Below, piece by piece: positions 21,522 through 40,983 of a stretch of 64,000 bases of DNA (position 1 is its first letter; the number at the start of each line of letters is the position of its first letter). Made by a program: the position numbers and the translations under genes. This stretch comes from Demequina litoralis. Lineage in GTDB: Bacteria; Actinomycetota; Actinomycetes; Actinomycetales; Demequinaceae. The stretch covers positions 124,001 through 188,000 of the forward strand of contig NZ_JAUHPW010000006.1 in assembly GCF_030418455.1 (NCBI RefSeq), written 5' to 3'. The notes under the pieces were generated by a model. The model did no database searches and had not been told where the DNA came from. It saw only the letters and a program-made list of their open reading frames with translations.

Positions 21522-22652
<1,131 letters not shown>

Positions 22653-22695: not shown

Positions 22696-23232
22696 CTACA
22701 GCAGCGCGAGCGCGACCGCGACGGCGGCTGCCAGCGCGCCGATGCCCCCCGCGACCGCGAGCGCCCGACGCCGGTGCCGGGACCTGGACGCGGCGAGCCG
22801 CCGGTCCTCGCGGCCGGACTCGTCGAGCACCTCGGGACCCTCGTCGGACGTGCGCGGCGGCTCGGGCCACACGCCCGCACCGCGCGCGTCCTGGGTGTGG
22901 CGGATGCGCGGGTAGTAGTGCTGCGGCGAGTGCCCGAAGGCGCCGGCCCGGGCGGGCGGGACACCGTCGGCGGCGTCGATCCGCGCGGCCAGGTCCGGCG
23001 GCGGCCGCAGCACGTCGTCCTCCCGCCGCCGCGGCGCATCGGCCGCCGGTCGCGTCGAGATCTCGGCCGGATCGGGCGCGGCGGGCTGGGTCGCGCTCTC
23101 CGCGATCCGGCGCCGCGACATGCGTGTCGAGTCCGCCGTGGCGCGGTCGGAGACCGCGGTGTCGTCGGCGGGAGCGTCCTGGCCGTCGCGCGCGCGACGT
23201 GCCGAGACCCGGGTCTCGTGGTCCTCGGTCAC
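22696..23232 (-). CDS. Tail-anchored acidic/Arg-rich protein, end of envelope-signalling operon
   Basis: A 178-residue protein with no family I recognise. Residues 1-150 are hydrophilic and probably disordered, rich in Arg, Asp, Pro and Ala; the last ~25 residues (RRRALAVAGGIGALAAAVAVA) form a single transmembrane helix, giving a tail-anchored, cytoplasm-facing protein. The GTG start overlaps the PP2C stop by 4 nt. Ser/Thr residues in the disordered part (for example TRVSARR, STRMSRR) could be kinase targets, which is inference from operon context. Confidence 0.7.
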   Translation of the reverse strand: MTEDHETRVSARRARDGQDAPADDTAVSDRATADSTRMSRRRIAESATQPAAPDPAEISTRPAADAPRRREDDVLRPPPDLAARIDAADGVPPARAGAFGHSPQHYYPRIRHTQDARGAGVWPEPPRTSDEGPEVLDESGREDRRLAASRSRHRRRALAVAGGIGALAAAVAVALALL

Positions 23233-24050
23233 GCGCCGCCCCGCCTCCTGGCGCTCGGCGTCGTGTCCTCGTGCGCGTCGGCGCCCCAGACCGGCCACGG
23301 TGCGGGGTCGGCGTCGCGGGGCGTGGTCGACGTGGCGTCGGCGATCACGACGGTGACGTTGTCGGTCGCGCCGCGGCCCACGGCCAGGTCGACCAGCGCC
23401 GCGGCGGCCGTCCCTGCGTCGCCGATGAGCCCGGCGACCTCGCCGATCTCGCGGTCCTCGACCTCCTTCATGAGGCCGTCGCTCGCGACGATCAGCCGCC
23501 GCCCGGGCACCTGCGGCACGAGCCATGCGTCCATCTCGAGGATGTCGTCGCCTATCGCCCGCGTGAGGATGTTGCGGTCGGGATGGACGAGCGCCTGCGC
23601 GGCGGTGATCCGGCCCGCGTCGACCAGGTCCTGCACGTGCGAGTGGTCCACCGTGACCTGGCGGAGCTCGCCGCCGTCGAGCGCGTACGTGCGCGAGTCG
23701 CCCACGTTCACCACCATCCACCACGGGCTGCCGCCGTGCACGACCGCGATCGCGCCGGTGAGGGTGGTGCCGGACGCCGCCCCGACGTCGCTCTGCACGG
23801 CCGCGACGTTGCGCCGCGCCTCGAGATGCGCGCGGGCGACGTCGTCCGGGGTCAGCGTGCTCGACCCGGCCAGCGGCTGGAAGGCCGCGATCGCCGCCCA
23901 GGCGGCCTCCGCGCCGGCGACGTGGCCGCCCATGCCGTCGGCCACCACGAACACGGGGGCCTCGGCGATGAACGCGTCCTCGTTGCGGGCCCGTCCGCCG
24001 ACGGCGGTCACGCCCGCGCCCGCGACATCCGGTGCGGCGTCGGGGCTCAC
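23229..24050 (-). CDS. PP2C-type Ser/Thr protein phosphatase
   Basis: A 273-residue PPM/PP2C phosphatase. Metal-binding motifs are in order: GGRARNEDAFI, ADGMGGHVAGAEA, NVGDSRTYALDGG, ASDGLMKEV and ATDNVTVVI. It is soluble, with a Pro-rich C-terminal tail of about 35 residues. It should reverse phosphorylation by the kinase encoded at the head of the same operon. Its GTG overlaps the stop of the FHA gene by 4 nt and its stop overlaps the next start in the same way. Confidence 0.94.
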   Translation of the reverse strand: MSPDAAPDVAGAGVTAVGGRARNEDAFIAEAPVFVVADGMGGHVAGAEAAWAAIAAFQPLAGSSTLTPDDVARAHLEARRNVAAVQSDVGAASGTTLTGAIAVVHGGSPWWMVVNVGDSRTYALDGGELRQVTVDHSHVQDLVDAGRITAAQALVHPDRNILTRAIGDDILEMDAWLVPQVPGRRLIVASDGLMKEVEDREIGEVAGLIGDAGTAAAALVDLAVGRGATDNVTVVIADATSTTPRDADPAPWPVWGADAHEDTTPSARRRGGA

Positions 24051-26029
24051 GCGGTGCTCCGGCGGCGGATCTCCACCTCGACGTCGCCGAGGATGAGCCG
24101 CCCGGCGACCGGGGTCGGCACGCCCTCGGCCACCTGCGCCTCGCGGCCGTCCGCGTCGACGAGGTAGGTGCCGTTGGTGGAGCCGAGGTCCTCGACCCAC
24201 CACGTGCCGCGCTGCAGCACGAGCCGCGCGTGCGACTTCGACACGGTCCGCGTCGAGTCCGCCAGGTCGAGGCGCCGCGTGCCGTCGATCGGGGGCATGC
24301 CGCCGAGGCGGCCGAGCAGCACCGACGAGGAGTCGAAGCGGTGGGTGCCGCCCTCGGACGTCACCAGCTCCCAAGCCTCGCGCTGGCGTGTCGAGACCTG
24401 GGTGCGGTCGTCGTGCTCGGGCTCCGGCGCGGGGGACGATGCGGCGGGCACCGGGGCGGGCTCGGGGCGGGCTGGCGCGGCGGGCGGCGGGGTGATGACG
24501 AACGGGTGCGCGGCCGGCTCCGCCGCGGGGGGCGCCGGGGGCGCCGCGAGGTCGGCGGGCGGCACGGGCTCGGCGACAGGCGCGGCGGCGGGCTCGGCGA
24601 CCGGCTCGGCGACGGGCTCGGGCTCCGCGATGGGCTCGGGCGCCTGCGGCATCTCGAACGTCGGCACGGAGGACGGGACGCGGGGCGGTGCCGCCGCGCC
24701 GCCCCGCATGTACGGGCTGATCGGCATGGTCGGCGTCGGCTCGACGAAGGCGGGCGCCTCGGGCCGCGCCGACTCCGGCTCGGGCTTGGGCTCCGACTCC
24801 AACTCCGGCTCCGGCTCGCGATCCGCGGCGGCCGGCCGGGCCTCGTCCGCGGGAGCGGACGGCTGGGCCGGCGTGGGGGACGATGCGGCGGGCGGCTCCG
24901 CGGGCGCGGCGTCCTCGCCGACTGCGGCGGTCCATGCCGCCTCCTCGGACGGCAGGGCGCGGGGAGCGAGGTCTGCGAACGGGGAGCGACGCTCGACGGC
25001 GGGGGTCTCGTCCGCGAGGTCGCGCGGCGCGAGCGAGGCGTACGGCGAGCGGCGGGTCGGGAGCGGCTCGGTGGTGGGCGCGGGCTCCGTGGCGGAGGCC
25101 TCCGACGGCTCCGGGACGGGCTCGTCCGCGATCGCGGCGGCGGGCTCCTCCGGCGCCGGTTCGGGTGCGGCGGCCTCGGATGCGGCGACGTCCACGGCGG
25201 GCGCCTGCTCGGGCTCCGCCGCGGTCGGCGCACGCTCCGGCTCCGCCTGCGAGGTCGCCGCCTCCCGCTGTCGCACGCCGGCGGAGCCCGGCATGGGCTC
25301 GTCCTCCGGGTAGCCGTCGCTGCCGGTGAAGGGCTCGACGGGGTACATCGCGGCGACGTCGGGGCGGTCCTCGGGCGCTCGCGCCCACAGCGCGGCCGCA
25401 GGGGTCGCGCCCCACGCCGGCGCCTCGACCGCGGCCTCCGCATGGCCGTCGCCCGCGGGCACGGTGGCGAGCACCGCATCGTCCGCGGCCTCGGCGGCCT
25501 CCTCGTCGGCCTGCGGCGCCCGCACCGGGACGGTGCCGGAGATCGGGCGCACCATCGACGACCAGCCGACGACGGCGGCCCACAGGCCGGGGGCGATCGC
25601 GGCGAGCACCGGGAGCGCGCCGGACAGGGAGTGGTCGAGGCCGAAGCGGTGGGTCTGCACGATCCAGAGCGTCCAGGCGGTGACGGCGGCGACGGAGGCG
25701 ATGGCGACGCCCGTGAGCGCGACGGGCGCCGATCCGGCGAGGTAGGCGCCGTAGCACCAGACCGCGAGCCCGATCGCGGTCGCGACGCGGGCCGCGACGG
25801 TGCCCGCGACGGTCGACTGCGTGAGCTGCGCGAGCTCCGCGTAGCGCGCGACGGGGATCCAGGCGCGCGCCTGGCGAGCGCCGACCTTGCGGTAGATCGC
25901 GCCGAGCGCGAGGCCCATCCACACGAGTCCGGCGGCGTACGCGAGAACCGCGGCGCCGACCACCGCGATGCCCGTGGCACCGCGCATCGTCGCCTCGCCC
26001 ACCACCTCGGTCAGGACCCCTGCCGTCAT
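24047..26029 (-). CDS. Membrane-anchored FHA-domain protein
   Basis: A 660-residue protein. The first ~150 residues contain four hydrophobic helices (for example VVGAAVLAYAAGLVWMGLALG and LPVLAAIAPGLWAAVVGW). A long disordered linker follows (about 160-550), rich in Pro, Glu and Ala, with repeated SPYASLAPR / SPFADLAPR motifs. The C-terminal ~100 residues are an FHA domain with GRLGG, SKSHARLVL and STNGTYL, which bind phosphothreonine. It would read kinase output at the membrane. AAGGAG lies ahead of the ATG. The Pro/Glu linker carries two AASSP segments made by the GGACGATGC motif (24434 and 24878). Confidence 0.9.
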   Translation of the reverse strand: MTAGVLTEVVGEATMRGATGIAVVGAAVLAYAAGLVWMGLALGAIYRKVGARQARAWIPVARYAELAQLTQSTVAGTVAARVATAIGLAVWCYGAYLAGSAPVALTGVAIASVAAVTAWTLWIVQTHRFGLDHSLSGALPVLAAIAPGLWAAVVGWSSMVRPISGTVPVRAPQADEEAAEAADDAVLATVPAGDGHAEAAVEAPAWGATPAAALWARAPEDRPDVAAMYPVEPFTGSDGYPEDEPMPGSAGVRQREAATSQAEPERAPTAAEPEQAPAVDVAASEAAAPEPAPEEPAAAIADEPVPEPSEASATEPAPTTEPLPTRRSPYASLAPRDLADETPAVERRSPFADLAPRALPSEEAAWTAAVGEDAAPAEPPAASSPTPAQPSAPADEARPAAADREPEPELESEPKPEPESARPEAPAFVEPTPTMPISPYMRGGAAAPPRVPSSVPTFEMPQAPEPIAEPEPVAEPVAEPAAAPVAEPVPPADLAAPPAPPAAEPAAHPFVITPPPAAPARPEPAPVPAASSPAPEPEHDDRTQVSTRQREAWELVTSEGGTHRFDSSSVLLGRLGGMPPIDGTRRLDLADSTRTVSKSHARLVLQRGTWWVEDLGSTNGTYLVDADGREAQVAEGVPTPVAGRLILGDVEVEIRRRSTA

Positions 26030-26045
26030 CCTCGTGCTCCTTCCC

Positions 26046-28583
26046 TCAAGCCCCACGCCGTCGTGCCGAGGACGAGCCGGGCCCCGTGGAGACGAGGCGC
26101 CAGCGCTCGTCGACGTGCACGCCCTCATGTCCCGGCGCGGCCGTCGTCACGTCCCTCCGACCCAGCAGCGAGCGGGTCGAGAGCCGTGCGCCGAGCCTAC
26201 GCCACCACCCCTGGCGCGCCCGGAGCTCCGCGCGGTCGGCCGCAAGCATGTCCCACGCGCGGCGCGCATCGTCCTCCTCGACGCCCTCCCGCGTGAACGT
26301 CGCCTGGTCCGCGAGCGCCGCGAGCGCGACGCCGTTGGCCGTGCCGTAGGCCTCCGCGACCTCGTGGCGGGTCGCGAGCGGCATGAGCGCGAGACCGGCG
26401 TCGATGCCGAGGTCGACGTACTCGTCCCAGCCGCCCTCGGCCGCGGCACGCGGCGCGGCGCGGCGGCGCCGGGAGCGGCGCACCGCCTTGGCGACGAGGA
26501 TCGCGAGCAGCGGGCCCAGGAGCAGCGCGAGCACGAGCGCGCCGCCGAGCACGGCCCGCACCCACCCGGTGAACCACGAGGCGCCCGACTCGACGACGGG
26601 GGCGGCCTCCCCGCCGCCGCTGCGACCCTTGAGCGCCGCGACGGCGTCGATGGGCTCGGCGCGGTCGGGGTCGGTCGCGGTCGGCAGCTCGGGCTCGCGC
26701 TGCGTGGCGACCGTGGGCGAGACGGGGTTCTCGTGCTGCGGGCTCACGTCGACCGGGATCCACGCGCCCGTGCCCGACCGCACCTCGGTCCACACGCTCA
26801 TGTTGCGGCCGCGGCACACCTCCTGGCATACGGGCGGCGTCCAGCCGTGCACGTCGGTGTCGGCGACGCGCACGCCCACGACCACGCGCGCGGGGAAGCC
26901 CAGCTCGGCGGCGAGCAGCGCGACCGCCGCGGCGAACTGCTCGTCGTCGCCGACGGCCGCGACCAGCTGCGCGTCCGACGCGCCGGGCCCCGCCTCCGCC
27001 TCCCTCTCGACGAGCGCCGCGAAGAGGCGGTCGATGCGGTCGTACGAGTGGCCCGCGGCGGAGGGCTGGAAGGCGTATCCGCCCAGGTCCGTGACCCAGC
27101 GGGGCGCGCCGTCGGCGGTGAGCGCATGGCTGAGGTAGCCGCGGGCGCGGAGCCGCTCGACCAGGGACGCGAGGCCCGCCCCGTCGCGTGTCACGCCCTG
27201 GTCCTCGACCCACGCGCGGAGCGACTCGGGGATGAGGTCGGCCGGCACCCCGGAGGATCCGGGCGAGGCTCCCGCCTCCGCGAGCGTCGACGCCTCGACG
27301 AACGCCGCCGTGATGCGCAGCTCGTCTCCGGCCGCGACGCCGCCGTCCACCGTCACCACGCCCGCGGCCGCCTCTGGCGCGAAGTAGAAGCCGTCGGCGA
27401 GGGCGGCCGCGCGCGGACCGCCGAAGGCGGCGCTGCCGAGCGGTCCCGGGAGCGGCGTCCAGGGTCCCTCGAGGCCCTCGATGGTCACGGTGAGCGCGAC
27501 CGTCTGCTCCGAGGCCATGGGCAGGGCCGAGGGCACGCGCTGGAACCTCAGGGGCGTGTACCCGTCGGGCGCCACCGCGGTGAACTCGCTGCCGTCGAAG
27601 AACGGCAGCGTCGCGACCCGGATCCGGCTGGCGTCCCCCGAGACGCCGGTCACGGTGAACAGCGGCGCGTCGTAGCGCTCGTCGGTGAGGTACGCGCGGT
27701 AGGTCGACAGCGGCGACACGGAGCGGTCGACCACGAGCCGCGGCTCGATCGTGGTGCGGGCGACATCCCGGGAGCTCGACTGCGCCGCCGGCACCGCGAC
27801 GGCGGTGCCGACCACGACGGCGACCACGAGCACCGAGACGCCGAGGACGGCACGGCCGAGCGCCCGGCCGGGCGCACGCTCGCCGCGGATCCCGCCGCCC
27901 GCGGCGCGGAGGGCGCGGCGGCGCTCGTCCGCCATCCGCCACAGCATCCACGCGAGGGTCGCGCCGAGCGCGCCGAGCCCGATGAGGATCTCGCGGCTCA
28001 GCCCGGCGAAGGGCCCGGGCAGCGCCTCGAGGTCGGTGCGCGCCGCGGGACCGATCGCGATCGCGACGGCGAAGGCGCCGCCGCCGACGGCCGCGGCGGA
28101 CCCCCACCAGCGCGGGCGCGTGCCGAGCCACACGATGCCCGCGGCGGTCGTGACGGTGAGCGCGAGCGGGACGGCGAGGGTGGCCCCGTACTCGCCGAGC
28201 GGGACGGGCAGCGTCACCACGTCCTTCCAGCCCGTCACGGGCGCACGGACGGCCTCGACGAGGGCCGCGGCGAACGCCTCGGGCCCGGCGGTCGCCCCGG
28301 GGATGGCCACGAGCACGGCTGCGGCGAGGTAGCCCGTGCCGGCGAGCGCGAGCAGCAGGACGGGACCGCGGCGGGCGAGGACCGTGACGACCCCCGCGAG
28401 CAGGCCGATCGCGAGGCCGACGACGACGACCAGGCCGTAGCGCGACACCACCGCATCGGTGGGCAGGTAGACGCGGCGCAGGGTGAGCCACACGACCTCG
28501 ATCATCGTGGCCGCGTACATGCAGGCCGCGACGAGCACCGCGGTGGGCACCTTGCGCCGGGCGTCGCCCTCGATCGCGCTCAT
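26046..28583 (-). CDS. TgpA-like transglutaminase-fold membrane protein, catalytic residues replaced
   Basis: An 845-residue protein. The N-terminus has about seven transmembrane helices up to residue ~270, then an extracytoplasmic region with a transglutaminase-like core near residues 580-660, one further transmembrane helix (VRAVLGGALVLALLLGPLLA) and a cytoplasmic tail. The core aligns as DEQFAAAVALLAAELGFPARVVVG, then SVWTEV, then PVDVSP. The usual nucleophilic Cys is absent (DEQF where GxC is expected) and the usual His (HAW) is Ser-Val-Trp; only the Asp remains. It is therefore probably non-catalytic. The stop of the DUF58 gene overlaps its ATG. MoxR-DUF58-transglutaminase triplets are a known module. 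Confidence 0.88.
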   Translation of the reverse strand: MSAIEGDARRKVPTAVLVAACMYAATMIEVVWLTLRRVYLPTDAVVSRYGLVVVVGLAIGLLAGVVTVLARRGPVLLLALAGTGYLAAAVLVAIPGATAGPEAFAAALVEAVRAPVTGWKDVVTLPVPLGEYGATLAVPLALTVTTAAGIVWLGTRPRWWGSAAAVGGGAFAVAIAIGPAARTDLEALPGPFAGLSREILIGLGALGATLAWMLWRMADERRRALRAAGGGIRGERAPGRALGRAVLGVSVLVVAVVVGTAVAVPAAQSSSRDVARTTIEPRLVVDRSVSPLSTYRAYLTDERYDAPLFTVTGVSGDASRIRVATLPFFDGSEFTAVAPDGYTPLRFQRVPSALPMASEQTVALTVTIEGLEGPWTPLPGPLGSAAFGGPRAAALADGFYFAPEAAAGVVTVDGGVAAGDELRITAAFVEASTLAEAGASPGSSGVPADLIPESLRAWVEDQGVTRDGAGLASLVERLRARGYLSHALTADGAPRWVTDLGGYAFQPSAAGHSYDRIDRLFAALVEREAEAGPGASDAQLVAAVGDDEQFAAAVALLAAELGFPARVVVGVRVADTDVHGWTPPVCQEVCRGRNMSVWTEVRSGTGAWIPVDVSPQHENPVSPTVATQREPELPTATDPDRAEPIDAVAALKGRSGGGEAAPVVESGASWFTGWVRAVLGGALVLALLLGPLLAILVAKAVRRSRRRRAAPRAAAEGGWDEYVDLGIDAGLALMPLATRHEVAEAYGTANGVALAALADQATFTREGVEEDDARRAWDMLAADRAELRARQGWWRRLGARLSTRSLLGRRDVTTAAPGHEGVHVDERWRLVSTGPGSSSARRRGA

Positions 28584-29947
28584 CCGCGTGCCGCCCCTCG
28601 CGCGAGCAGCTGACGCAGGTCCTCGAGCACGCCGAGGCTGACGAGCTGGAGGCCGCCGAGCACGTGCGTGCGCGGCTCGGAGGCCGGGTCGCACACCACC
28701 GCGCCGACGGCGACGTCGGCGGGGAAGCGCAGCGCGGCCGTCCGCAGCCGCTCGTGCGCGAGCGCGGAGCCTGTGACGAGCACCGCGAGCGACGTGCCCG
28801 GGTCGTCCTCCGCGACCATCCGCGTCACGGTCGCGAGATCCATCGCGGCGTGGGTGGACCCGACCGCGGTGAGGTCGTCCAGCAGCGGGCGCGGCGCGTC
28901 GACCCGCAGCGCGCGCAGCGCGCGCACGGAGGCCCGCGCGAACTCGGGGACCTCGCCGCTGATGACGGCCCGCACCTCGCGCCCGTCGCGGATCGCCCGC
29001 GTGCCGAGCGACGCGAGCGCGCTCACCGCCATCTCGAACTCGTCGTCGTCGCGGTACGAGTCGGGATCGACGTCGAGGACGAGCATGAGGAGCGAGCGGC
29101 GCGTCTCCTCGAACTGGCGCACCATGAGCGTGCCGGTCTTCGCGGTCGAGCGCCAGTGGATGTGCCGCTGCGCGTCGCCGCGCTGGTACTCGCGGACGGC
29201 GTGGAACGAGATGTCCTCGTTGGTGAGGATGCGCACCGCCTGGCCCTCGAGGTCGCGGATCCACCCGAGCGACGTGCTGGGCACCTCGACGGTGCGCGGA
29301 TGGACGTACAGCGGCCGCATCTCGTCCCATGCGAGGTGGCGGCGCAGCAGCCGCAGCGGGTCGGTGCGGGTCGAGGCCGCGGGGCCCACCTCGACGATCC
29401 CGCGCGGGCGAGGCGGGATCACCACCCGCTCGGACCAGCGGGCGCCGGCCCGCAGCAGCGGCACGTGAAGCTCGACGAGCGCGTCGCCGACGGGCAGCTC
29501 GACGCTGCCCGGCAGCGCCGCATGCCGGCCCGCGTTCTCGACGACGATCTCGCCGCCGGCCTCTTCCCCGGCGACGACGGCGTCGCGCTCGAGGGCGAAC
29601 TCGACGCGGTAGCGGACGTCGCCGAGCAGGAAGGGCACGGCGGCGACGAGCAGCACCGCGCCGACGATCCCGCCGACGAGCGCCTCCTCCCAGCCGAGCG
29701 CGAGCCCGAGCGTCAGCCCCACCGCGGTCCATCCCGCGACGGCCCAGCCGGCGGGCGTCACCACGGACCGCGCCGCGGCCCACCACCGCTCGAGCACGTC
29801 CGCCGCCGCGCGCGCGGCGCTGTCGACCCGCAGGCGCGCCCCGACCGCCCTCGCGCGCGGCACGTCGGCGACCTCCGTGCGCGTCGAGTACGTCCCGGTC
29901 GCGCCGCTGCGCGTCCGGGTCGCGGTCCGGTCGGGGCGCTCGCTCAC
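28580..29947 (-). CDS. DUF58 membrane protein (MoxR-associated)
   Basis: A 455-residue protein with two N-terminal transmembrane helices (about 78-125) and a DUF58 domain. The diagnostic segment REYQRGDAQRHIHWRSTAKT followed by LMVRQFE is present, and LLMLVLDVDP begins the vWA-like fold. DUF58 proteins act with MoxR AAA+ ATPases, often in assembly or activation of envelope complexes. The GTG start overlaps the moxR stop by 4 nt and its own stop overlaps the next ATG. Confidence 0.92.
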   Translation of the reverse strand: MSERPDRTATRTRSGATGTYSTRTEVADVPRARAVGARLRVDSAARAAADVLERWWAAARSVVTPAGWAVAGWTAVGLTLGLALGWEEALVGGIVGAVLLVAAVPFLLGDVRYRVEFALERDAVVAGEEAGGEIVVENAGRHAALPGSVELPVGDALVELHVPLLRAGARWSERVVIPPRPRGIVEVGPAASTRTDPLRLLRRHLAWDEMRPLYVHPRTVEVPSTSLGWIRDLEGQAVRILTNEDISFHAVREYQRGDAQRHIHWRSTAKTGTLMVRQFEETRRSLLMLVLDVDPDSYRDDDEFEMAVSALASLGTRAIRDGREVRAVISGEVPEFARASVRALRALRVDAPRPLLDDLTAVGSTHAAMDLATVTRMVAEDDPGTSLAVLVTGSALAHERLRTAALRFPADVAVGAVVCDPASEPRTHVLGGLQLVSLGVLEDLRQLLARGAARG

Positions 29948-30903
29948 GCGAGGTCCTTCTGGCTGGGCGGCGGGGTGTCCAGCAGGATCTGGCCGATCAC
30001 GGCGCCCTGGGTGACGCCGTCGAACTCCGCCTCGGGATCGAGGATGAGGCGGTGCGCGAGCACCACCTCGGCGAGCACCTTGACGTCGTCCGGCACCACG
30101 TAGTGGCGGCCGTGCGCGAGCGCCCACGTGCGGCTCGCGCGGGCGAGGGCGAGCCCGCCGCGCATCGACGCGCCGAGGCGCACCTGGGTCGCGCCGCGGG
30201 TCGCGCCCACGATGCGCGCGATGTAGTCGGAGATCAGGGGGTGCTGCTGCACGTCGTGCGTGAGCGCGGACATCGCCGTGATGGCGTCGAGCTCCGCGAT
30301 GGCCGGGACGGTGACGCGCGTGGGACGCCCCGGCTCGAGGATGCGCAGCGTCGCGGCGTGGTCCGGGTAGCCGAGCGAGGTGCGCATGAGGAAGCGGTCG
30401 AGCTGCGCCTCCGGCAGCGCGTACGTGCCGGCCTGCTCGACGGGGTTCTGGGTCGCGATCACCATGAACGGCGCGCCCACCTCGCGTGTGACGCCGTCGA
30501 CGGTGACCTGCCTCTCCTCCATCACCTCGAGCAGCGCCGACTGGGTCTTCGGCGAGGCGCGGTTGACCTCGTCGGCGAGCACCACGTTCGCGAACACCGG
30601 ACCGTGGTGGAACTCGAACCTCCCCTGGTCGTACACCGTGACGCCGGTGACGTCGCCGGGCAGCAGGTCGGGGGTGAACTGGATGCGGGTGCTGGTGCCG
30701 CGCACCGTCTCCGCCATCGCGCGCGCCAGCGACGTCTTGCCCGTGCCGGGCACGTCCTCGAGCAGGAGGTGGCCCTCCGCGATCATCGCCGTGAACGCGA
30801 GCTCAACCACGTGGCGCTTGCCCACGACCGCGCGTTCGACGTTGTCGGCGAGCTTGCCGAAGGTGGTCTCGAACCACTGCGTGTGCTCGGAGGTCAGGGC
30901 CAC
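29944..30903 (-). CDS. MoxR-type AAA+ ATPase
   Basis: A 319-residue MoxR ATPase. Walker A is EDVPGTGKTSLA, Walker B is VVLADEVNRA, sensor 1 is FMVIATQNPVEQ and the arginine-finger region is LPEAQLDRF. The C-terminal lid (ASMRGGLALARASRTWAL) is typical. MoxR proteins work as chaperone-like motors for partners with vWA/DUF58 domains, here the next gene. A strong AAGGAGG ribosome site precedes the GTG start, and the giant Ig-like gene ends 44 nt upstream. Confidence 0.95.
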   Translation of the reverse strand: MALTSEHTQWFETTFGKLADNVERAVVGKRHVVELAFTAMIAEGHLLLEDVPGTGKTSLARAMAETVRGTSTRIQFTPDLLPGDVTGVTVYDQGRFEFHHGPVFANVVLADEVNRASPKTQSALLEVMEERQVTVDGVTREVGAPFMVIATQNPVEQAGTYALPEAQLDRFLMRTSLGYPDHAATLRILEPGRPTRVTVPAIAELDAITAMSALTHDVQQHPLISDYIARIVGATRGATQVRLGASMRGGLALARASRTWALAHGRHYVVPDDVKVLAEVVLAHRLILDPEAEFDGVTQGAVIGQILLDTPPPSQKDLA

Positions 30904-30946
30904 AGCGGCCTCCTTTCGTGTGGGCCCCGGCGGGGCCGGACGCCGC

Positions 30947-33900
30947 TCATGGCGCCACCGTCGTATCGGGGTCGGGGTCGGGCGGGGCGCCGTCGCAGGC
31001 GACGTCGGCGCTGGTCCATTCGGCGATGCCGGCGAGCGCGGCCTGGAACGCGACCGTCACCCGGGCGGTGCGCATGAGCGCCGCGTCCGTGGTGGGAGCT
31101 CCGGACCCGTCCAGCATCGTCACGGTGGCCGCGAAGTCCGCGGCGGCGCCGCCGAGGGAGACGGCCGGGGCGGTGCCGACGGTGCAGGACGCGAGCTCCA
31201 CGGTCGGGCGGTAGCGGGCGCCGGACTCGGGCGTCACGGGCGTGGTCTGGTCGGAGCACGTGCGCTCGCCGCCGCCGAAGTCGACGCAGTAGTACGCGAC
31301 CGCCGACACCGCGCGGCCCGGCACCATGACGTCGGCGAACGACGTCGACGTCGACCCGTCGGACCCGCGGTACCAGAGCTCGAGCCCGGCGCGCGGCTGC
31401 CACTGCGGCTCGCGCTCGAGCGCGGTGGTGCACGAGCTCCCGGCCCCGTCGCACGTCGACGCGACGCGGTAGCCGCGCTGCAGGACGGGCGCCCCGGGGT
31501 CCGTGAACGCGGCGAACACGACGTCGCGCGTCTCCGCCTGGCCGAACACCTGGCCGTCGGCGCGGCTCTCCGCGCACACGGTGACGGTGTTCGTCGCGTT
31601 CGCGTCGACGGGAACGGTGAACGATGCGGTGCCGCCCGACGCCTGGGTGGTCGCGTCGCAGCGGCCGCCGACCATGCGCCCCACCCACGTGGCGGACCCC
31701 GCGCCGCCGGCGGTGACGTCCGCGGTGATGGTGGCCTGGCCCGCCCCGGAGGTGTAGGAGTGGCTCGCCCCGTCGATGGTGGGCCGTCCGATGCCGTGCG
31801 CCGTGATGGTGACGGACGTGCCCGCGGCGGCCGCGCCGTCGACTGGCGGCAGGTCGAACACGGTGAGCGGGGTGAGGACCACGTCGACGGGCGTGTTGGA
31901 GCCGATCGCGATCCCCTCGATCCGCTGCGTGCCGGTGCCGACCGGGACGGTCTGCTCGGTGCCCGCGGTGGCGATGCGGACCTCGCTGGTCGACCCGTCC
32001 GTGACGTCGAGCACGAGGTCGATGCGGCCGCCGTCGCCGGACGTCACCGACGGCTGCCACGACACGACCGTGGGCGGGGCGGGCGGGGCGTAGGCCCACG
32101 CGGTCGCGGAGGCCGCCGCCCGCGAGCGCCCGACCGAGTTCACCGCGTAGACGGCGTAGGTCGCCTTCGCCCCGTTCGCGAGCCCGGTGATCGGCGCGCA
32201 CACGCCGCCCGCGGTGCACGTCGTCACGGTGACGCCGCCTGACACGACGTCGAAGCGCTGGAGCGCGGGATAGGCCCCCGCGGCGCCGCCCGGCGCCACG
32301 GCGAGCGTGACCGAGCCGTCGCCGTAGTCCACCTGCGACACCTCCGCGGGCGCGCGCGGGAAGCCCTGCAGGTCGAGGCTGATGCTCCCGGAGCGGTCGG
32401 CGGCGCTCACGCGGCCCTGGGCGTCGCGCACCCGGAACACGGCGTCGCACACCCCGCCCGCGGCGTCGGCGGTCCAGGTGACGCGCACCCGGTCGCCGCC
32501 CGCGGCCTGGAAGCGCACGTCGGGGCAGTCGCCCGCGGCCTTGACGTCGACCACCTCGAGGGGGGTGCCCGGCAGCGGGTTGACCTCGCCCGCCGCCCCG
32601 ACGACGGTGAGGGTGCAGCTGTCGCCGTCGGCCTGCGAGCAGCGCTCCACCACGGAGCCGCCCTTGGGGAGCTCGGACGGCGCGGGGCCGACGACGAGCG
32701 ACAGCACGCGGGGCTGCACCTCGGGATGGTCGGGGAGCGACACGGTGACGGACTCCGCGCGACCGGGCGCCGCATCGTCCCTCGCCACGATGGAGAGGCG
32801 CGCGCCGTCGCGCCGCACGTCGAAGAGCTGCCCGGAGTAGGTGGCTACGACCTGGACGTCCGTCGCGGCGGCGCCCTCGGGCCAGCGCACCATCCGGCCG
32901 AGGTCGAAGCCCGCGGTGTCGCCGGGGGAGATCTCGAGCGAGGCGCTCACCAGCGTGGGCACCGGATCCGCCGGCACGATCGTCACCGGCACCGGCAGCA
33001 CCGTCCACGCGTCCTGCCCCGCCAGCCGGACCGCGACCAGGCACGTGTCGGTGTAGGGCGCGCCGGCCCCCGCCTCGTACCGCACGGTGGTCCCGGCGAC
33101 GGCGGCGCAGGACGCCTGGTCGCGCGCCCCGCCGGCACGCACCTGGGCGCCGTCGAGCTCGATCGCGGTGCCGTCGGGCGCCGCCAGCAGCGGGGCCACG
33201 TCGACGGTCACCGCGCCGCCCTCGTCCACGGACACGTGGGCGTCCTCGCGCAGCGCGAGCCGCAGGTCCTGACCGCCGAGGACCCGGAGGAAGCCGTAGC
33301 CGACGGCGGTGTCGCCCGCGAAGTCCGTGCCCTCGACACGGAACGGCACGATGCGGGTCGCGTCGGGCAGCGGGCCGGAGATCTCCGAGCCGGACACCGC
33401 GAGGTCGTCCTGCTCGCCCCAGAGCGACAGCCCCAGGGTCGCGGCGTCGCCGCTGGCCCAGGCGACGGTGCCGGCGAGCACGTCGACACCCGTCGGGAAG
33501 GCGTCCCTGGTCTCGAGGGTGAGGACGGTGTCCGCGACGATCGGGGTATCGGTGACCCGCTCGCGCACGGCCTTGAGGACGATGCGGCCCTGCGCGAGCG
33601 AGCCCGTCGCGTTGCGGACGGTGTAGAGGTAGGCGTAGGTGCCCACGTCGGCGCCGACCTCGAAGGTCACCAGCCCCTCGGCGAGCGCCTCGGCCGTGTT
33701 GAGGTCCGCGGGCAGCAGCGCCGCGAGCGCCGCGCGCTCGTCGGTGCCCTCGGCGGCGTCGGGTCTCACGTCGACGAGCTCGAGGTCGCCGCCCGTGAGG
33801 TCGAGGTCGTTGGCCAGCGGCTGGACCACCACCTTGCGCCCGGTCCCCGCCTGGACCTGCACGAAGTCGGTGTAGGTGACCGGCGCCGGGTCGGCCTCGA

Positions 33901-36853
33901 CCGCGACGACGCCCACGCGGGCGGTCGCGGTCGCGGTGCGGCCACGCGCGTCGATGACCTGGAAGTCGAACTCGTCCTGCCCGGCGAAGCCCGCGATGGA
34001 CGCGTAGACGAGGGCGGCGCCGTCCGCGCTCACCCGCGCCGAGCCCTGCGCGGGCTGCGACACGACCGCGTCGAGGCGCACCTCGTCGCCGTCGGGGTCG
34101 AGGCCGGTGCCGTCGAGCTCGAGGCGCACCTCCTCGCCCGACGAGGCGCGCACGGCGAGGTCGCGGGGCGTGGGGGCGGCGTTCTCGGAGCCGTCGGTGA
34201 CGGTGACGACGATGACCCCGGTGTCGCGCTGCGATGGGAAGCCGAGCACGTAGGACGCGTAGGGGATCCGATACGTGCCGGCGCTGTCGGGCGCGAGGAT
34301 GCGCACGAGCGGACCGGCGGCGAACGCGAGCCCGCCCCCCGCAGGCGCCTCGACCGACCCCGCGTCGAGCGCGATGACGGCGCCCGCCGTGGCGACGTCG
34401 TTGTCGAGCACCCGGACGTCCACCTGGCCGCCGGCGCGCACCGTGACGGCGTCATCCGCGACCAGCGGCGGCGCGGGCACGGCCGAGTCGAGCAGCACCA
34501 CGGTGATCTCGCCGCGGACCGTCATCGCGGCCCGGCCGGAGCCGTCGGAGACGGTGTACGACACGACGCCGAGCAGGCCGGGCTGGCCGTCGCCCGTCGT
34601 GCCGGACAGGCGCAGCGCCCCATGTCCCACGATCGAGGCCTCGACGCGGGCGCCGTTGGACGAGTCGACCGAGGCATCCGACAGCAGCAGCACGCGGCCG
34701 CCGGGGTTGGTGACGGCGTCGAGGACGTCGACGGTGACGTCCTCGTGCGGCCGCACGAAGGCGGTCAGCGGCACGGTCGCGAGCGCCTCGTCCTGCGGCG
34801 CGAGCACCGTCACCCGCGCGGTCCCACGCGCCTGGACCGCACCGTCCACCACCGTCACGTCGACCGTGTAGGTGCCCGGCTGGCCCGCCTCGAAGAGGAC
34901 GCCGGACGCGTCGGGCGAGACCTCCACGCTCGCGCCGTCGGCCGGGTCCACCGTCGCCTCCGTGACCTCCGGGGCGCCGGCGCCACCCGCGACCCGGTCC
35001 GCGAAGGCGATCGAGGTGCGCACGCCGGCGAGCGCCGTCACCGCGAGGGGCTCGAGCGTGAGCCGCGGCTCGCCGACCACCCCCACGCGCATCGTGCGCG
35101 TCGCCGTCGCCCCCCGCGCATCGGCGACCGTGACCTCGACCTCGACCTCCCGCGCGGTGCCCCCGTGGCGGACCACCACGGAGCCCTCGGGCGAGGCCGC
35201 CACCGCGACCTCCGCATCGGTCGTCACGGCGCTCCGGACGTAGACCGGGTCGCCCTCGGGGTCCACCCATCCGTCGAGGACGTCGACGGTGACGGTGCCG
35301 TCCGCCTCGACCTGGGGTGCGGGCCACTCGGCGACGCAGCCCTCGACGCCGCACCAGGCGGGCGCGGAGTTGCCGCGCGCGGCCGCGAGCGTGACGGTCG
35401 CCGGCTCGGACAGGCCCTGCGGTCCGGAGCCGTCGGAGATCGCGTACATGAACGACGCCGAGCCCTTCGCACCGGGCGCGACGGTGGCGACGAGCGACTG
35501 GCCGTCGTCGCCGATCGCCACCGTGGCGAAGGCGTCGTCGGGCTGCGTGAGGCTCGCGGCGTCGATCGTGAGCAGGTCGCCGTTCGCGTCGTGGTCGTTG
35601 AGGAGCACCGGCAGGCGGACCTGGCGGCCGGCGCGCACGCCGAGCGCATCGTCCTCCGCGACGGGCGGGCGCGGGTCGCGCACCTCGGCGGAGACGTCCT
35701 GCTGCTCCTCGGTGGCCGTCGTCTGCTCGTCGGGCACCCAGTCCTGCGACGAGCGGACGAGCGTGCCGGAGGGGACCTCCCACACCCAGCCCGAGCGCAC
35801 CTCGTTGAGGACCATGCGCGCGCCGTTCGAGCGCAGCACCGGCTCGCGGCGCTCCCCGAGCGTGCCGCCGCCGTAGGCGAGCGGGATGGTCGGTCCGGCG
35901 GAGCTCCACAGCGTGCCCTCGCCGTCGCCGTCGGGCAGCCACGCCGCGTAGACGACGCCGTCGAGCTCGGCGGGCGCGGCCGGCACGCCCGCCGCGGCGT
36001 CCGAGCCGAACACGCGGCCCGCGGCGCCGTCCGCCGGCACCACCACGAGCCCGCGGCCGTCCGCGATCCGCACGTCGCCGCCCGTGCTCGGGCGCTGCAG
36101 GCGCGCATCGCCGTCGGTGTCCGTGACGGTCGCGCCGTCGACGCCCTCGCGCCACAGCTCGGCGGTCTGAGCCTCGAGCAGCACCCACGCGGAGCCCGCG
36201 AAGGACACCTGGTAGGTGCCGGTCTCGGGGGCGTCCGGCACCGGGTCGATGCCCGCGACCGCCCCGTCGGCGTCCGCGCGCACCACGCCGCCGAGGGTGG
36301 GGGAGTACGCCGCGAGGTCGCCGTCGGCGGTGACCGCCACGGCCACCGCACGCAGCCCGTCGCCCGAGTCGAGGACGATCTCGCGCGGCTCGAGCGCGGT
36401 GCCGTCGGAGATCCGGCCTGCCAGCACGTCGCCGTCCGCGGCGAGGTAGGCGACGACGTCGCCCTCCGCGGCGATCGCCGTCGTGCCGGCGGGGGTGTCG
36501 ACGGCCCCCTCCGCGCCGGCCTCGAGATCGACCGGGTGCCCGGCGTCGAGCTCGGTGACCGCCGTGTACCCCGCCGACAGCACGAGCAGGCTGCCGTCGT
36601 GCTGGAGGATCTCGGACGGCGCGTCGACCTCCTTGACGGTGTCGACCTCGGCGAGCTCGGTGTTGACGCGCGCGTAGCGCTCGCCCGCTCCCGCCTGCAG
36701 CGCCCACACCGTCGGGTCGACCGCGACCGCCTCGCGCTCGTCGAAGCCCGGCGCCACGATCGCGCCGACGGTCGCGACGGCGAGCACCGCGCCCGCGACG
36801 ATGCGCGCCGTGCGGCGGCGCCGCGCGGCCGTCGCGCGGCCGACGTCGGTCAC
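30947..36853 (-). CDS. Giant exported Ig/cadherin-like and FN3-repeat protein
   Basis: A 1,968-residue protein. The basic N-terminus and single helix (IVAGAVLAVATVGAIVAPG, about 17-36) serve as a signal anchor. Residues about 45-390 have regular hydrophobic/Gly-Asp repeats suggestive of a beta-propeller. From about 395 to 1,450 there is a string of Ig/cadherin-like modules of the tandem-95 type, recognised by recurring AEDDALGVRAG, VLDNDV and GxxxFxYxVxDG motifs. Residues about 1,600-1,700 hold an FN3 module (PRAPAEVSQVDYGDGSVTL), followed by cysteine-containing Ig-like modules to a Pro/Asp tail. No sortase motif is seen. Its GTG overlaps the kinase stop by 4 nt. It is likely to extend from the membrane and act in adhesion or sensing. 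Confidence 0.88.
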   Translation of the reverse strand: MTDVGRATAARRRRTARIVAGAVLAVATVGAIVAPGFDEREAVAVDPTVWALQAGAGERYARVNTELAEVDTVKEVDAPSEILQHDGSLLVLSAGYTAVTELDAGHPVDLEAGAEGAVDTPAGTTAIAAEGDVVAYLAADGDVLAGRISDGTALEPREIVLDSGDGLRAVAVAVTADGDLAAYSPTLGGVVRADADGAVAGIDPVPDAPETGTYQVSFAGSAWVLLEAQTAELWREGVDGATVTDTDGDARLQRPSTGGDVRIADGRGLVVVPADGAAGRVFGSDAAAGVPAAPAELDGVVYAAWLPDGDGEGTLWSSAGPTIPLAYGGGTLGERREPVLRSNGARMVLNEVRSGWVWEVPSGTLVRSSQDWVPDEQTTATEEQQDVSAEVRDPRPPVAEDDALGVRAGRQVRLPVLLNDHDANGDLLTIDAASLTQPDDAFATVAIGDDGQSLVATVAPGAKGSASFMYAISDGSGPQGLSEPATVTLAAARGNSAPAWCGVEGCVAEWPAPQVEADGTVTVDVLDGWVDPEGDPVYVRSAVTTDAEVAVAASPEGSVVVRHGGTAREVEVEVTVADARGATATRTMRVGVVGEPRLTLEPLAVTALAGVRTSIAFADRVAGGAGAPEVTEATVDPADGASVEVSPDASGVLFEAGQPGTYTVDVTVVDGAVQARGTARVTVLAPQDEALATVPLTAFVRPHEDVTVDVLDAVTNPGGRVLLLSDASVDSSNGARVEASIVGHGALRLSGTTGDGQPGLLGVVSYTVSDGSGRAAMTVRGEITVVLLDSAVPAPPLVADDAVTVRAGGQVDVRVLDNDVATAGAVIALDAGSVEAPAGGGLAFAAGPLVRILAPDSAGTYRIPYASYVLGFPSQRDTGVIVVTVTDGSENAAPTPRDLAVRASSGEEVRLELDGTGLDPDGDEVRLDAVVSQPAQGSARVSADGAALVYASIAGFAGQDEFDFQVIDARGRTATATARVGVVAVEADPAPVTYTDFVQVQAGTGRKVVVQPLANDLDLTGGDLELVDVRPDAAEGTDERAALAALLPADLNTAEALAEGLVTFEVGADVGTYAYLYTVRNATGSLAQGRIVLKAVRERVTDTPIVADTVLTLETRDAFPTGVDVLAGTVAWASGDAATLGLSLWGEQDDLAVSGSEISGPLPDATRIVPFRVEGTDFAGDTAVGYGFLRVLGGQDLRLALREDAHVSVDEGGAVTVDVAPLLAAPDGTAIELDGAQVRAGGARDQASCAAVAGTTVRYEAGAGAPYTDTCLVAVRLAGQDAWTVLPVPVTIVPADPVPTLVSASLEISPGDTAGFDLGRMVRWPEGAAATDVQVVATYSGQLFDVRRDGARLSIVARDDAAPGRAESVTVSLPDHPEVQPRVLSLVVGPAPSELPKGGSVVERCSQADGDSCTLTVVGAAGEVNPLPGTPLEVVDVKAAGDCPDVRFQAAGGDRVRVTWTADAAGGVCDAVFRVRDAQGRVSAADRSGSISLDLQGFPRAPAEVSQVDYGDGSVTLAVAPGGAAGAYPALQRFDVVSGGVTVTTCTAGGVCAPITGLANGAKATYAVYAVNSVGRSRAAASATAWAYAPPAPPTVVSWQPSVTSGDGGRIDLVLDVTDGSTSEVRIATAGTEQTVPVGTGTQRIEGIAIGSNTPVDVVLTPLTVFDLPPVDGAAAAGTSVTITAHGIGRPTIDGASHSYTSGAGQATITADVTAGGAGSATWVGRMVGGRCDATTQASGGTASFTVPVDANATNTVTVCAESRADGQVFGQAETRDVVFAAFTDPGAPVLQRGYRVASTCDGAGSSCTTALEREPQWQPRAGLELWYRGSDGSTSTSFADVMVPGRAVSAVAYYCVDFGGGERTCSDQTTPVTPESGARYRPTVELASCTVGTAPAVSLGGAAADFAATVTMLDGSGAPTTDAALMRTARVTVAFQAALAGIAEWTSADVACDGAPPDPDPDTTVAP

Positions 36854-37929
36854 CCGCCGCCCGCCAGCGTCATCACCAGGACGGTCGTGACGGTCGCCGC
36901 CGCGGCCGCGCCGAGGGCCCACGCGACGATCGTGCGCGGAGTCGCGTGCGGCGGCCGGGCCAGGGTGCCGGTCACGGTCCCCCGCCGGCGCTGCGCCACG
37001 GGCACGTGCGAGCGCACCGGGCCGCGCGGCGCATCGTCCACCGTCACCCGCGACGCCTGCGCCCACGCGTCGGTGGGCACCTCGAGGGGCGTCACGGGCA
37101 GCCCGAGGTCCCGCTGCACCGCCTGCAGCGCCTGCCCGAAGGCGAGCGCGCTGGGGAAGCGGTCGCCGGGGTCGCGGCGCATGCCGCCCGCGAGCGCCTC
37201 CTCGAGCGCGGCGGGGACGTCGTCGCGTCCGGTCGCGCGGTACCGCGCCTTGAGGATCCGCGCCTTGAGCTGCGCCGGCGGCAGGCGCCGGTCGGACTCG
37301 TCGAACGGGCTGTGCTGCGCGATCAGGGTGTACACGGTCGCCGCGAGCGACCACACGTCGGATGCCACGGTGCCCGAGCTCATGCGGTCGATGACCTCGG
37401 GCGCGCTCCAGGGCGGGCTCATGGCGACGTCGTCGGCGTCGCCTGCCATCACGGCGGTCGCGACGCCGAAGTCCGACAGGACGGGGTGGCCGAACTGCGT
37501 GACGAGGATGTTGGACGGCTTGATGTCGCGGTGGAGCATGCCGATGCGGTGGGCCGCCTCGACGGCGGAGGCGATCTGGACGCCGACGGCGAGCACGTCC
37601 GCGACCGGGATCTGCTCGGCCCGGTACCGGTTCGCGAGCGAGCCGGGGCAGTACTCGACCACCATGAACGGGCGCCCGTCGCCCGAGACCGACGCCTCGT
37701 GCACCGTGAGGATCGACGGGTGGGCGCTGAGCGCCGCCATGACGTCCGCCTCGACGCCGAGCGCGCGGGCCGCGGCGTCGTGGACGCGCGCGTGGAGCAC
37801 CTTGACCGCCACCTGCCGCCGCGGCATGTCCTGCTGGAACAGGAACACGTCCGCGAAGCCGCCCTGCCCGAGCGGGCGCACGTACGTGTACCCGGGCAGC
37901 ACCGGCGGCTGGAGGGGCTGTCGGCTCAT
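36850..37929 (-). CDS. PknB-type membrane Ser/Thr protein kinase
   Basis: A 359-residue kinase. The N-terminal catalytic domain has the Gly loop GQGGFADVF, ATP-anchoring Lys in VAVKVL, catalytic HRDIKPSN, DFG (LSDFGVAT) and WSAPEVI in the activation loop. A juxtamembrane Arg-rich linker follows, and a single transmembrane helix (about 332-354) ends with only a few outer residues, so it has no PASTA or other sensor domain of its own. The giant Ig/FN3 protein encoded next, with a 4-nt overlap, may supply the outer input. GGAGGG precedes the ATG, and the ATG itself overlaps the stop of a 15-codon leader. Confidence 0.93.
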   Translation of the reverse strand: MSRQPLQPPVLPGYTYVRPLGQGGFADVFLFQQDMPRRQVAVKVLHARVHDAAARALGVEADVMAALSAHPSILTVHEASVSGDGRPFMVVEYCPGSLANRYRAEQIPVADVLAVGVQIASAVEAAHRIGMLHRDIKPSNILVTQFGHPVLSDFGVATAVMAGDADDVAMSPPWSAPEVIDRMSSGTVASDVWSLAATVYTLIAQHSPFDESDRRLPPAQLKARILKARYRATGRDDVPAALEEALAGGMRRDPGDRFPSALAFGQALQAVQRDLGLPVTPLEVPTDAWAQASRVTVDDAPRGPVRSHVPVAQRRRGTVTGTLARPPHATPRTIVAWALGAAAAATVTTVLVMTLAGGG

Positions 37930-37973
37930 GGCCCTCCGAGCCCGGGGTGGCGGCGGGAAGGCGACGGGCTCAT
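37926..37973 (-). CDS. 15-codon leaderless leader peptide coupled to the kinase gene
   Basis: ATG at 37973 begins a 15-residue open frame (MSPSPSRRHPGLGGP) whose TGA (37928-37926) overlaps the kinase ATG (37929-37927) as ATGA. TACGCT lies exactly 6 nt before it on the minus strand (37980-37985), so the mRNA would start at or next to this ATG. The kinase ribosome site GGAGGG lies inside the leader. Translation of the leader would bring ribosomes to the kinase start, a simple coupling device. It has no known homologue. Confidence 0.55.
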   Translation of the reverse strand: MSPSPSRRHPGLGGP

Positions 37974-37979
37974 GCCGAC

Positions 37980-37985
37980 AGCGTA
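37980..37985 (-). promoter_or_regulatory. -10 element of the kinase/Ig/MoxR operon
   Basis: TACGCT on the minus strand fits the TAnnnT -10 consensus and stands 6 nt from the leader ATG. No clear -35 is seen. It is the only good promoter-like hexamer upstream of the roughly 15-kb operon, whose later genes overlap one another. A second start before moxR, where a 44-nt gap occurs, cannot be excluded. Confidence 0.5.
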
Positions 37986-38026
37986 GCCATCGGACCGCCC
38001 GCCACGGCGGTGCGCGGCGCCGTGCC

Positions 38027-40876
<2,850 letters not shown>

Positions 40877-40983
40877 CGGCCCATTCTTGCGCATCGTGCC
40901 CGGTGCCCCGCCGAGGTGTGGCGCACCGGACACCACGGACGGCCTGCGAGATCCCCTCCAGGCACGGGCACTAGCCTGAGGGC

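Follow-up and report, generated by a model that had tools for sequence, protein, structure and literature searches.

A conserved leaderless-type mini-ORF putatively coupled to a protein kinase start in Demequina

Why should an open reading frame of only 15 codons stand between a promoter-like hexamer and the start of a protein kinase gene, and by what route would ribosomes then reach the kinase? This question is raised by a locus in the genome (3.02 Mb) of Demequina litoralis, a member of a genus that belongs to an actinobacterial order other than that of the mycobacteria; the 64,000-nucleotide stretch analysed here is referred to as the window. A preliminary description had proposed that the short frame converts leaderless initiation into coupled initiation dependent on a Shine-Dalgarno (SD) site. 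The arrangement on which the proposal was built is indeed present, on the minus strand. A −10-like hexamer of the TANNNT type, TACGCT (37980..37985), is followed by a 6-nt spacer, GTCGGC (37974..37979), and by the ATG of a 15-codon leaderless-type mini-ORF, MSPSPSRRHPGLGGP plus TGA (37926..37973), the stop codon of which lies within the kinase start. Transcription would presumably begin at A37973, in the mini-ORF ATG.

Layout of the kinase locus

The mini-ORF TGA (37928-37926) overlaps the kinase ATG (37929-37927) within the tetranucleotide ATGA (37926..37929, minus strand), so that the two codons have two bases in common. An SD-like site of the kinase, GGAGGG, lies inside the mini-ORF at 37937-37932 (minus strand), as had been noted, and varies among relatives. 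The kinase itself (36850..37929, minus strand; Pfam PF00069, Pkinase), which has its closest named counterparts in Demequina rhizosphaerae (98%) and D. maris (97%), is the first gene of a likely operon. According to domain and start calls, the rest of this operon (22696..36853, minus strand) comprises an Ig/cadherin-repeat protein, a MoxR ATPase (AAA), DUF58, transglutaminase, FHA and PP2C proteins, and one more gene. With the start calls made here, 4-nt RTGA overlaps occur at five of the seven junctions of the run from the kinase down to 22696. The protein adjoining the kinase (30947-36853, minus strand) is 1968 amino acids long and carries bacterial Ig and cadherin-like domains. A further leaderless-type start at 22652 (minus strand; TACGCT, 7 nt, ATG), located inside the long gene run 43 nt past the preceding stop, suggests an internal promoter.

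On the other side of the locus, the upstream gene (38027..40936, minus strand), which we take to be gcvP-like and whose start may lie further in, ends 41 nt before the −10 hexamer. Neither a −35 element nor a match to the sigma-70 consensus was found at the putative kinase promoter. TANNNT promoters of Mycobacterium tuberculosis are likewise described as devoid of a conserved −35 element (PMC3898074). Coupled mini-ORFs can also mislead start prediction, as exemplified by a simple codon-bias gene caller that misplaced the kinase start by 27 nt into the gene.

Leaderless-type starts, chance, and conservation

Leaderless promoters look real in this genome, given that TANNNT-N6-ATG occurs 228 times genome-wide as compared with 51 times for the reversed pattern. 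Among 395 called genes in 464 kb, in-frame RTGs stand most often 6 or 7 nt after a TANNNT (41 and 32 cases versus 10 and 8 in the reversed control), and a leaderless-type start was recorded for 128 of 723 called genes in 864 kb versus 6-38 for eight decoy hexamers. Within the window, TANNNT stands 6-7 nt before an in-frame RTG in 9 of 56 called genes, against two non-gene frames behind such a hexamer—the kinase mini-ORF and a 2-codon frame—in agreement with the earlier remark that most starts of this type open the gene directly. Coupled mini-ORFs behind TANNNT show no such excess in the 864-kb sample: six were counted versus 2-7 for eight decoy hexamers, and a stricter count yielded three versus a decoy mean of 1.46, with at least three in 14 of 59 decoys. 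Of the mini-ORFs behind TANNNT, three of six are coupled, compared with 197 of all 668 upstream mini-ORFs (p=0.25, with only six mini-ORFs counted). A search with the reverse-written pattern returned 18 places versus one in the control. Thirteen of these open frames of at least 75 codons with ATGA further in; of the remaining five, two overlap and represent one 21-codon frame, one returned no entry, and two are coupled cases, namely the kinase and a GTPase-like gene. From this genome alone, the mini-ORF arrangement could be accidental. What places the locus above chance is its conservation in all 12 closest relatives, with six invariant diagnostic bases.

This conservation emerged from a comparison of 43 kinase copies, four of them second copies, from 39 of the 44 genomes of the genus; no close copy was found in G011, G026, G036, G039, and G040 as judged by best E-value. 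The scan covered TANNNT at a spacing of 5-8 nt within 160 nt of the kinase, so that other promoter types would be missed. In all 12 copies with at least 82% identity, TAC[GC]CT is followed at exactly 6 nt by ATG. The mini-ORF comprises 15 codons in five of these copies, 17 in five, 16 in one, and 13 in one, and the distances involved (44, 47, and 50 nt) leave it in the same frame relative to the kinase start. ATGA ends the mini-ORF in 11 of the 12; in the twelfth, G035, the kinase starts with ATGC and an in-frame TGA leaves 5 nt before the kinase ATG. No coupled mini-ORF was detected within the limits of the scan in any of the other 31 copies. Two of them contain unrelated TANNNT-RTG frames, one in G038 with its stop ~21 nt upstream and one in G012 with a spacing of 8 and its stop outside the RTGA register. 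By eye, many of the 31 combine a strong purine-rich SD with a TANNNT-like hexamer located upstream at very roughly 65-90 nt; no such hexamer was seen in G009 and G017, the latter of which has GGGGGAG before the kinase start.

Two peculiarities were encountered among the kinase copies. In the complete genome of D. sediminis (L012/L038), the aligned kinase frame is without an in-frame start codon and appears to be broken in its first dozen codons, be it by sequencing error or in reality. The second kinase copies of G042 and G006 (L077, L078) are ~60-63% identical to that of the window and have a different upstream region.

When changes were mapped on the midpoint-rooted tree of these 12 kinases, none fell on the T, A, and T of the TANNNT hexamer or on any base of the mini-ORF ATG, as compared with 116 changes (~2.8 each) at 42 ungapped upstream sites, none of which was unchanged. 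In three gapped alignments, the unchanged upstream columns numbered 0-2 of 64-67 (Fisher 6e-9 to 2e-7). The mini-ORF interior accumulated 1.0-2.6 changes per site and no excess at third positions; the corresponding values for codon positions 1, 2, and 3 of the kinase are 0.33, 0.21, and 1.93. The change counts thus indicate that the start, the frame, and a stop codon on or close to the kinase start have been kept and that the peptide has not. No run of one residue is kept in the mini-ORF peptides of the 12 genomes.

Shine-Dalgarno strength and other coupled loci

SD energies were computed with the usual anti-SD sequence, which was assumed rather than taken from the 16S gene. In the 12 kinases preceded by a mini-ORF they range from −3.5 to −8.9 kcal/mol with a median of −6.2; for random positions in the window, the median is −3.0 and the 10% point −7.0 kcal/mol. 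Five of the 12, namely this genome and four of its relatives, have a good site (−8.9), one has an intermediate site (−7.0), and the other six have weak sites (−3.5 to −5.3). Hence, the proposal of the preliminary description divides into two parts: a putative handing-on of ribosomes from a leaderless start on the mini-ORF to the kinase is supported by the comparison, since the −10 hexamer, the spacing, the ATG, and the frame are kept in 12 of 12 copies and the stop/start overlap in 11, whereas its dependence on the SD is not. In the aligned sequences, the conserved part is the stop/start overlap and not the SD. Seventeen kinase copies without a mini-ORF, obtained from the 31 by leaving out the four second copies and ten copies at no more than 54% identity, have stronger sites (−6.2 to −14.2, median −11.5 kcal/mol). 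The difference between the 12 and the 17 copies has a p-value of 6e-5, and of 5e-6 to 3e-4 over 12 parameter settings; these p-values ignore shared ancestry, and few independent changes underlie the comparison. The nearest kinases without a mini-ORF, those of G009 (−6.2) and G017 (−8.6), are also weaker than most, which speaks against a simple relation between mini-ORF and SD.

Four coupled loci were checked in relatives, one of which, encoding a 126-aa protein, is poorly conserved. A parallel to the kinase is provided by a GTPase-like gene (L108; G000:C18, minus strand, gene start at 231252), the sequence of which contains a P-loop, GAGKS, and which is preceded by the coupled mini-ORF MLWNGCVVA. 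Of the 44 genomes, 41 were searched and 40 compared, G010 having been dropped as fragmentary. The mini-ORF occurs in 19 of the 40 (12 of 12 close and 7 of 28 further genomes) and in all 19 it has 9 codons, lies 26 nt ahead of the gene, and ends in ATGA. The SD has a median of −7.3 kcal/mol (range −10.1 to −5.7) in the 19 genomes with the mini-ORF and of −11.1 kcal/mol (range −13.0 to −6.9) in the 21 without it (p=8e-7, ignoring shared ancestry). On the tree, the mini-ORF is found in two clades, beside one of which stands G037, a genome with no mini-ORF and an SD of −13.0; this distribution is compatible with two gains as well as with one gain and a loss. A stretch near GTGCCGCCTGGTA, upstream of the −10 hexamer of this locus, also appears well kept by eye in the close genomes.

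The remaining loci differ in their degree of conservation. Ahead of a gene that is presumably a methyltransferase (L122; G000:C1:121240, minus strand; present in 11 of 12 genomes, with a weak match only in G035) lies a coupled mini-ORF that starts with GTG. It comprises 21-33 codons and ends in RTGA in 9 of the 11 genomes; in G008 the stop begins 7 nt upstream, and in G022 no mini-ORF was found. Residues 7-9 read RIV in all ten mini-ORFs found, and five of the ten share the full VIGPHPRIV, so that part of this peptide may be constrained, unlike that of the kinase mini-ORF. The gene for the 126-aa hydrophobic protein (L136; G000:C1:10064, minus strand), where a −10 spacing of only 5 nt precedes a 13-codon mini-ORF, was found in 8 of 12 genomes; the mini-ORF is present in five of these eight relatives and absent in two, and the locus is incomplete in G013. 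At G000:C12:146559 (L161), TAGGCT, 6 nt, and an ATG open the 8-codon frame MPAMPDPT, the stop of which overlaps the start of a 339-codon gene, and a 2-codon coupled case lies at G000:C1:225301 in the 864-kb sample.

The kinase and GTPase loci both fit a reading in which the same gene of Demequina can be started interchangeably by a leaderless mini-ORF with a terminal ATGA or by a 5′ leader that carries an SD. Lineages would switch between the two whenever an ATG at the transcript start is acquired or lost, and the SD would decay once a mini-ORF is present. This generalization is put forward tentatively, as one that may well turn out to be wrong.

Possible explanations and known systems

From the observed elements and their conservation we infer a transcript start, translation of the mini-ORF, and re-initiation on the kinase. 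In the explanation considered probable, the TANNNT promoter would direct transcription to begin at, or no more than one base from, the mini-ORF ATG, and the mRNA would be leaderless. A ribosome would load on the 5′ AUG, translate 15 codons, terminate at the UGA sharing two bases with the kinase AUG, and re-initiate on the kinase; the SD would be an optional aid varying between species, such that a strong one is not needed. The mini-ORF would then be a ribosome-loading device whose peptide sequence is without a specific task. Alternatively, the mini-ORF might be incidental, the kinase being initiated de novo from GGAGGG on a 44-nt 5′ leader that merely happens to carry an ATG at the transcript start. 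The SD energy of −8.9 kcal/mol found here and in four relatives and the failure of single-genome coupled counts to exceed the decoys are in favor of this view. It is nevertheless unlikely, since no letter of the ATG varies among the 12 genomes, the reading frame relative to the kinase start is retained despite differences in length, the stop of G035 is merely displaced to a site close by, and the SD reaches only −3.5 to −5.3 in six of the 12. Rather improbable, too, is that the kinase is expressed mainly by read-through from the gene 41 nt upstream, with TACGCT as a minor promoter: the gap is short and a 301-nt scan revealed no terminator-like site, but the −10 hexamer and the ATG remain invariant in an intergenic sequence that otherwise turns over, and in many more distant relatives the kinase is preceded, by eye, by its own TANNNT-like hexamer.

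Two further possibilities assign a role to the peptide or to its translation. The speed of the ribosome on the mini-ORF, or a hairpin melted by it, might tune the operon to a signal, as in an attenuator or a stalling peptide. Polycysteine leaderless short ORFs of mycobacteria, as cited in PMC13236596, provide a precedent, and the sequence analysed here contains GAGCCCG, which could base-pair with CGGGCTC immediately ahead of the SD. Yet the mini-ORF is free of codon-position constraint; across the 12 genomes it contains no conserved peptide, no kept residue run, and no codon run matched to a signal. Moreover, the 12 sequences fold no more stably than mononucleotide shuffles (z −1.4 to 1.8), their predicted structures differ, and Rfam returns no family at gathering score in 37800-38200, all of which makes attenuation improbable to a high degree. 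Conservation of start and frame would also be expected if the mini-ORF encoded a small protein acting in trans, an idea that is hardly credible because the residues change freely and third positions have no excess of changes. Ribosome loading by a leaderless mini-ORF, followed by termination-reinitiation, thus remains the preferred reading. The locus offers a natural test case for the replacement of an SD leader by leaderless loading.

Each step of the inferred course is backed by work on other systems. Overlapping gene pairs of Haloferax and Escherichia coli have been dissected in a study whose first author we take to be Huber. According to that study (PMC6728339), the share of the SD in re-initiation varies between such pairs, being essential at one extreme and absent at the other; the pairs resemble the kinase locus in their ATGA overlap and differ from it in being full gene pairs rather than leaderless mini-ORFs. 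Short ORFs that 'deliver' ribosomes feature in a 2025 review (PMC12548453), and 268 leaderless novel short ORFs with ribosome profiles are listed for M. tuberculosis in PMC9094748. According to Shell 2015 (PMC4633059), an RTG at the transcript start is sufficient for initiation in mycobacteria and is also necessary for it in M. smegmatis, and RTGA-coupled small ORFs of the leaderless kind are over-represented. By its sequence features, the kinase locus belongs to this class already described in mycobacteria. A limited literature search found no report joining Demequina and leaderless starts, nor one of an association between mini-ORF and weaker SD; what may be new is that the presence of the mini-ORF is tied to a weaker SD at two loci. 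Coupled leaderless mini-ORFs are also extended from mycobacteria to Demequina, where selection can be seen across a dozen species.

The coupled leaderless small ORFs of M. tuberculosis and M. smegmatis, as characterized in Shell 2015 (PMC4633059), have an RTG start, a length of 5-50 codons, and a TGA/RTG overlap, and some members keep the linkage while the peptide diverges. The kinase mini-ORF has 15 codons here and 13-17 in the 12 genomes, an RTGA overlap here and in 11 of 12 (the stop of G035 lying 5 nt before the ATG), and the same retained linkage with a diverging peptide; for the transcript start at RTG, TANNNT located 6 nt upstream in 12 of 12 serves as a promoter proxy. It departs from the class as presented there in its occurrence in Demequina, its kinase/MoxR operon, its 12-genome conservation, and the comparison of SDs, and in being known from sequence. 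In M. tuberculosis, expression of PPE2 requires an AUGA uORF that acts mainly by termination-reinitiation, as reporters demonstrated (PMC11260477). Like the kinase mini-ORF, uPPE2 is a short, out-of-frame uORF with an AUGA overlap; the downstream gene there is described as devoid of an SD. In contrast to the kinase mini-ORF, with no Rfam family at gathering score in 37800-38200, the uORF of PPE2 is leadered, has its own SD, and is under the control of a B12 riboswitch. The polycysteine leaderless short ORFs (Canestrari 2020, as cited in PMC13236596) likewise head operons; the kinase mini-ORF differs in that it contains no Cys run and its peptide is not conserved.
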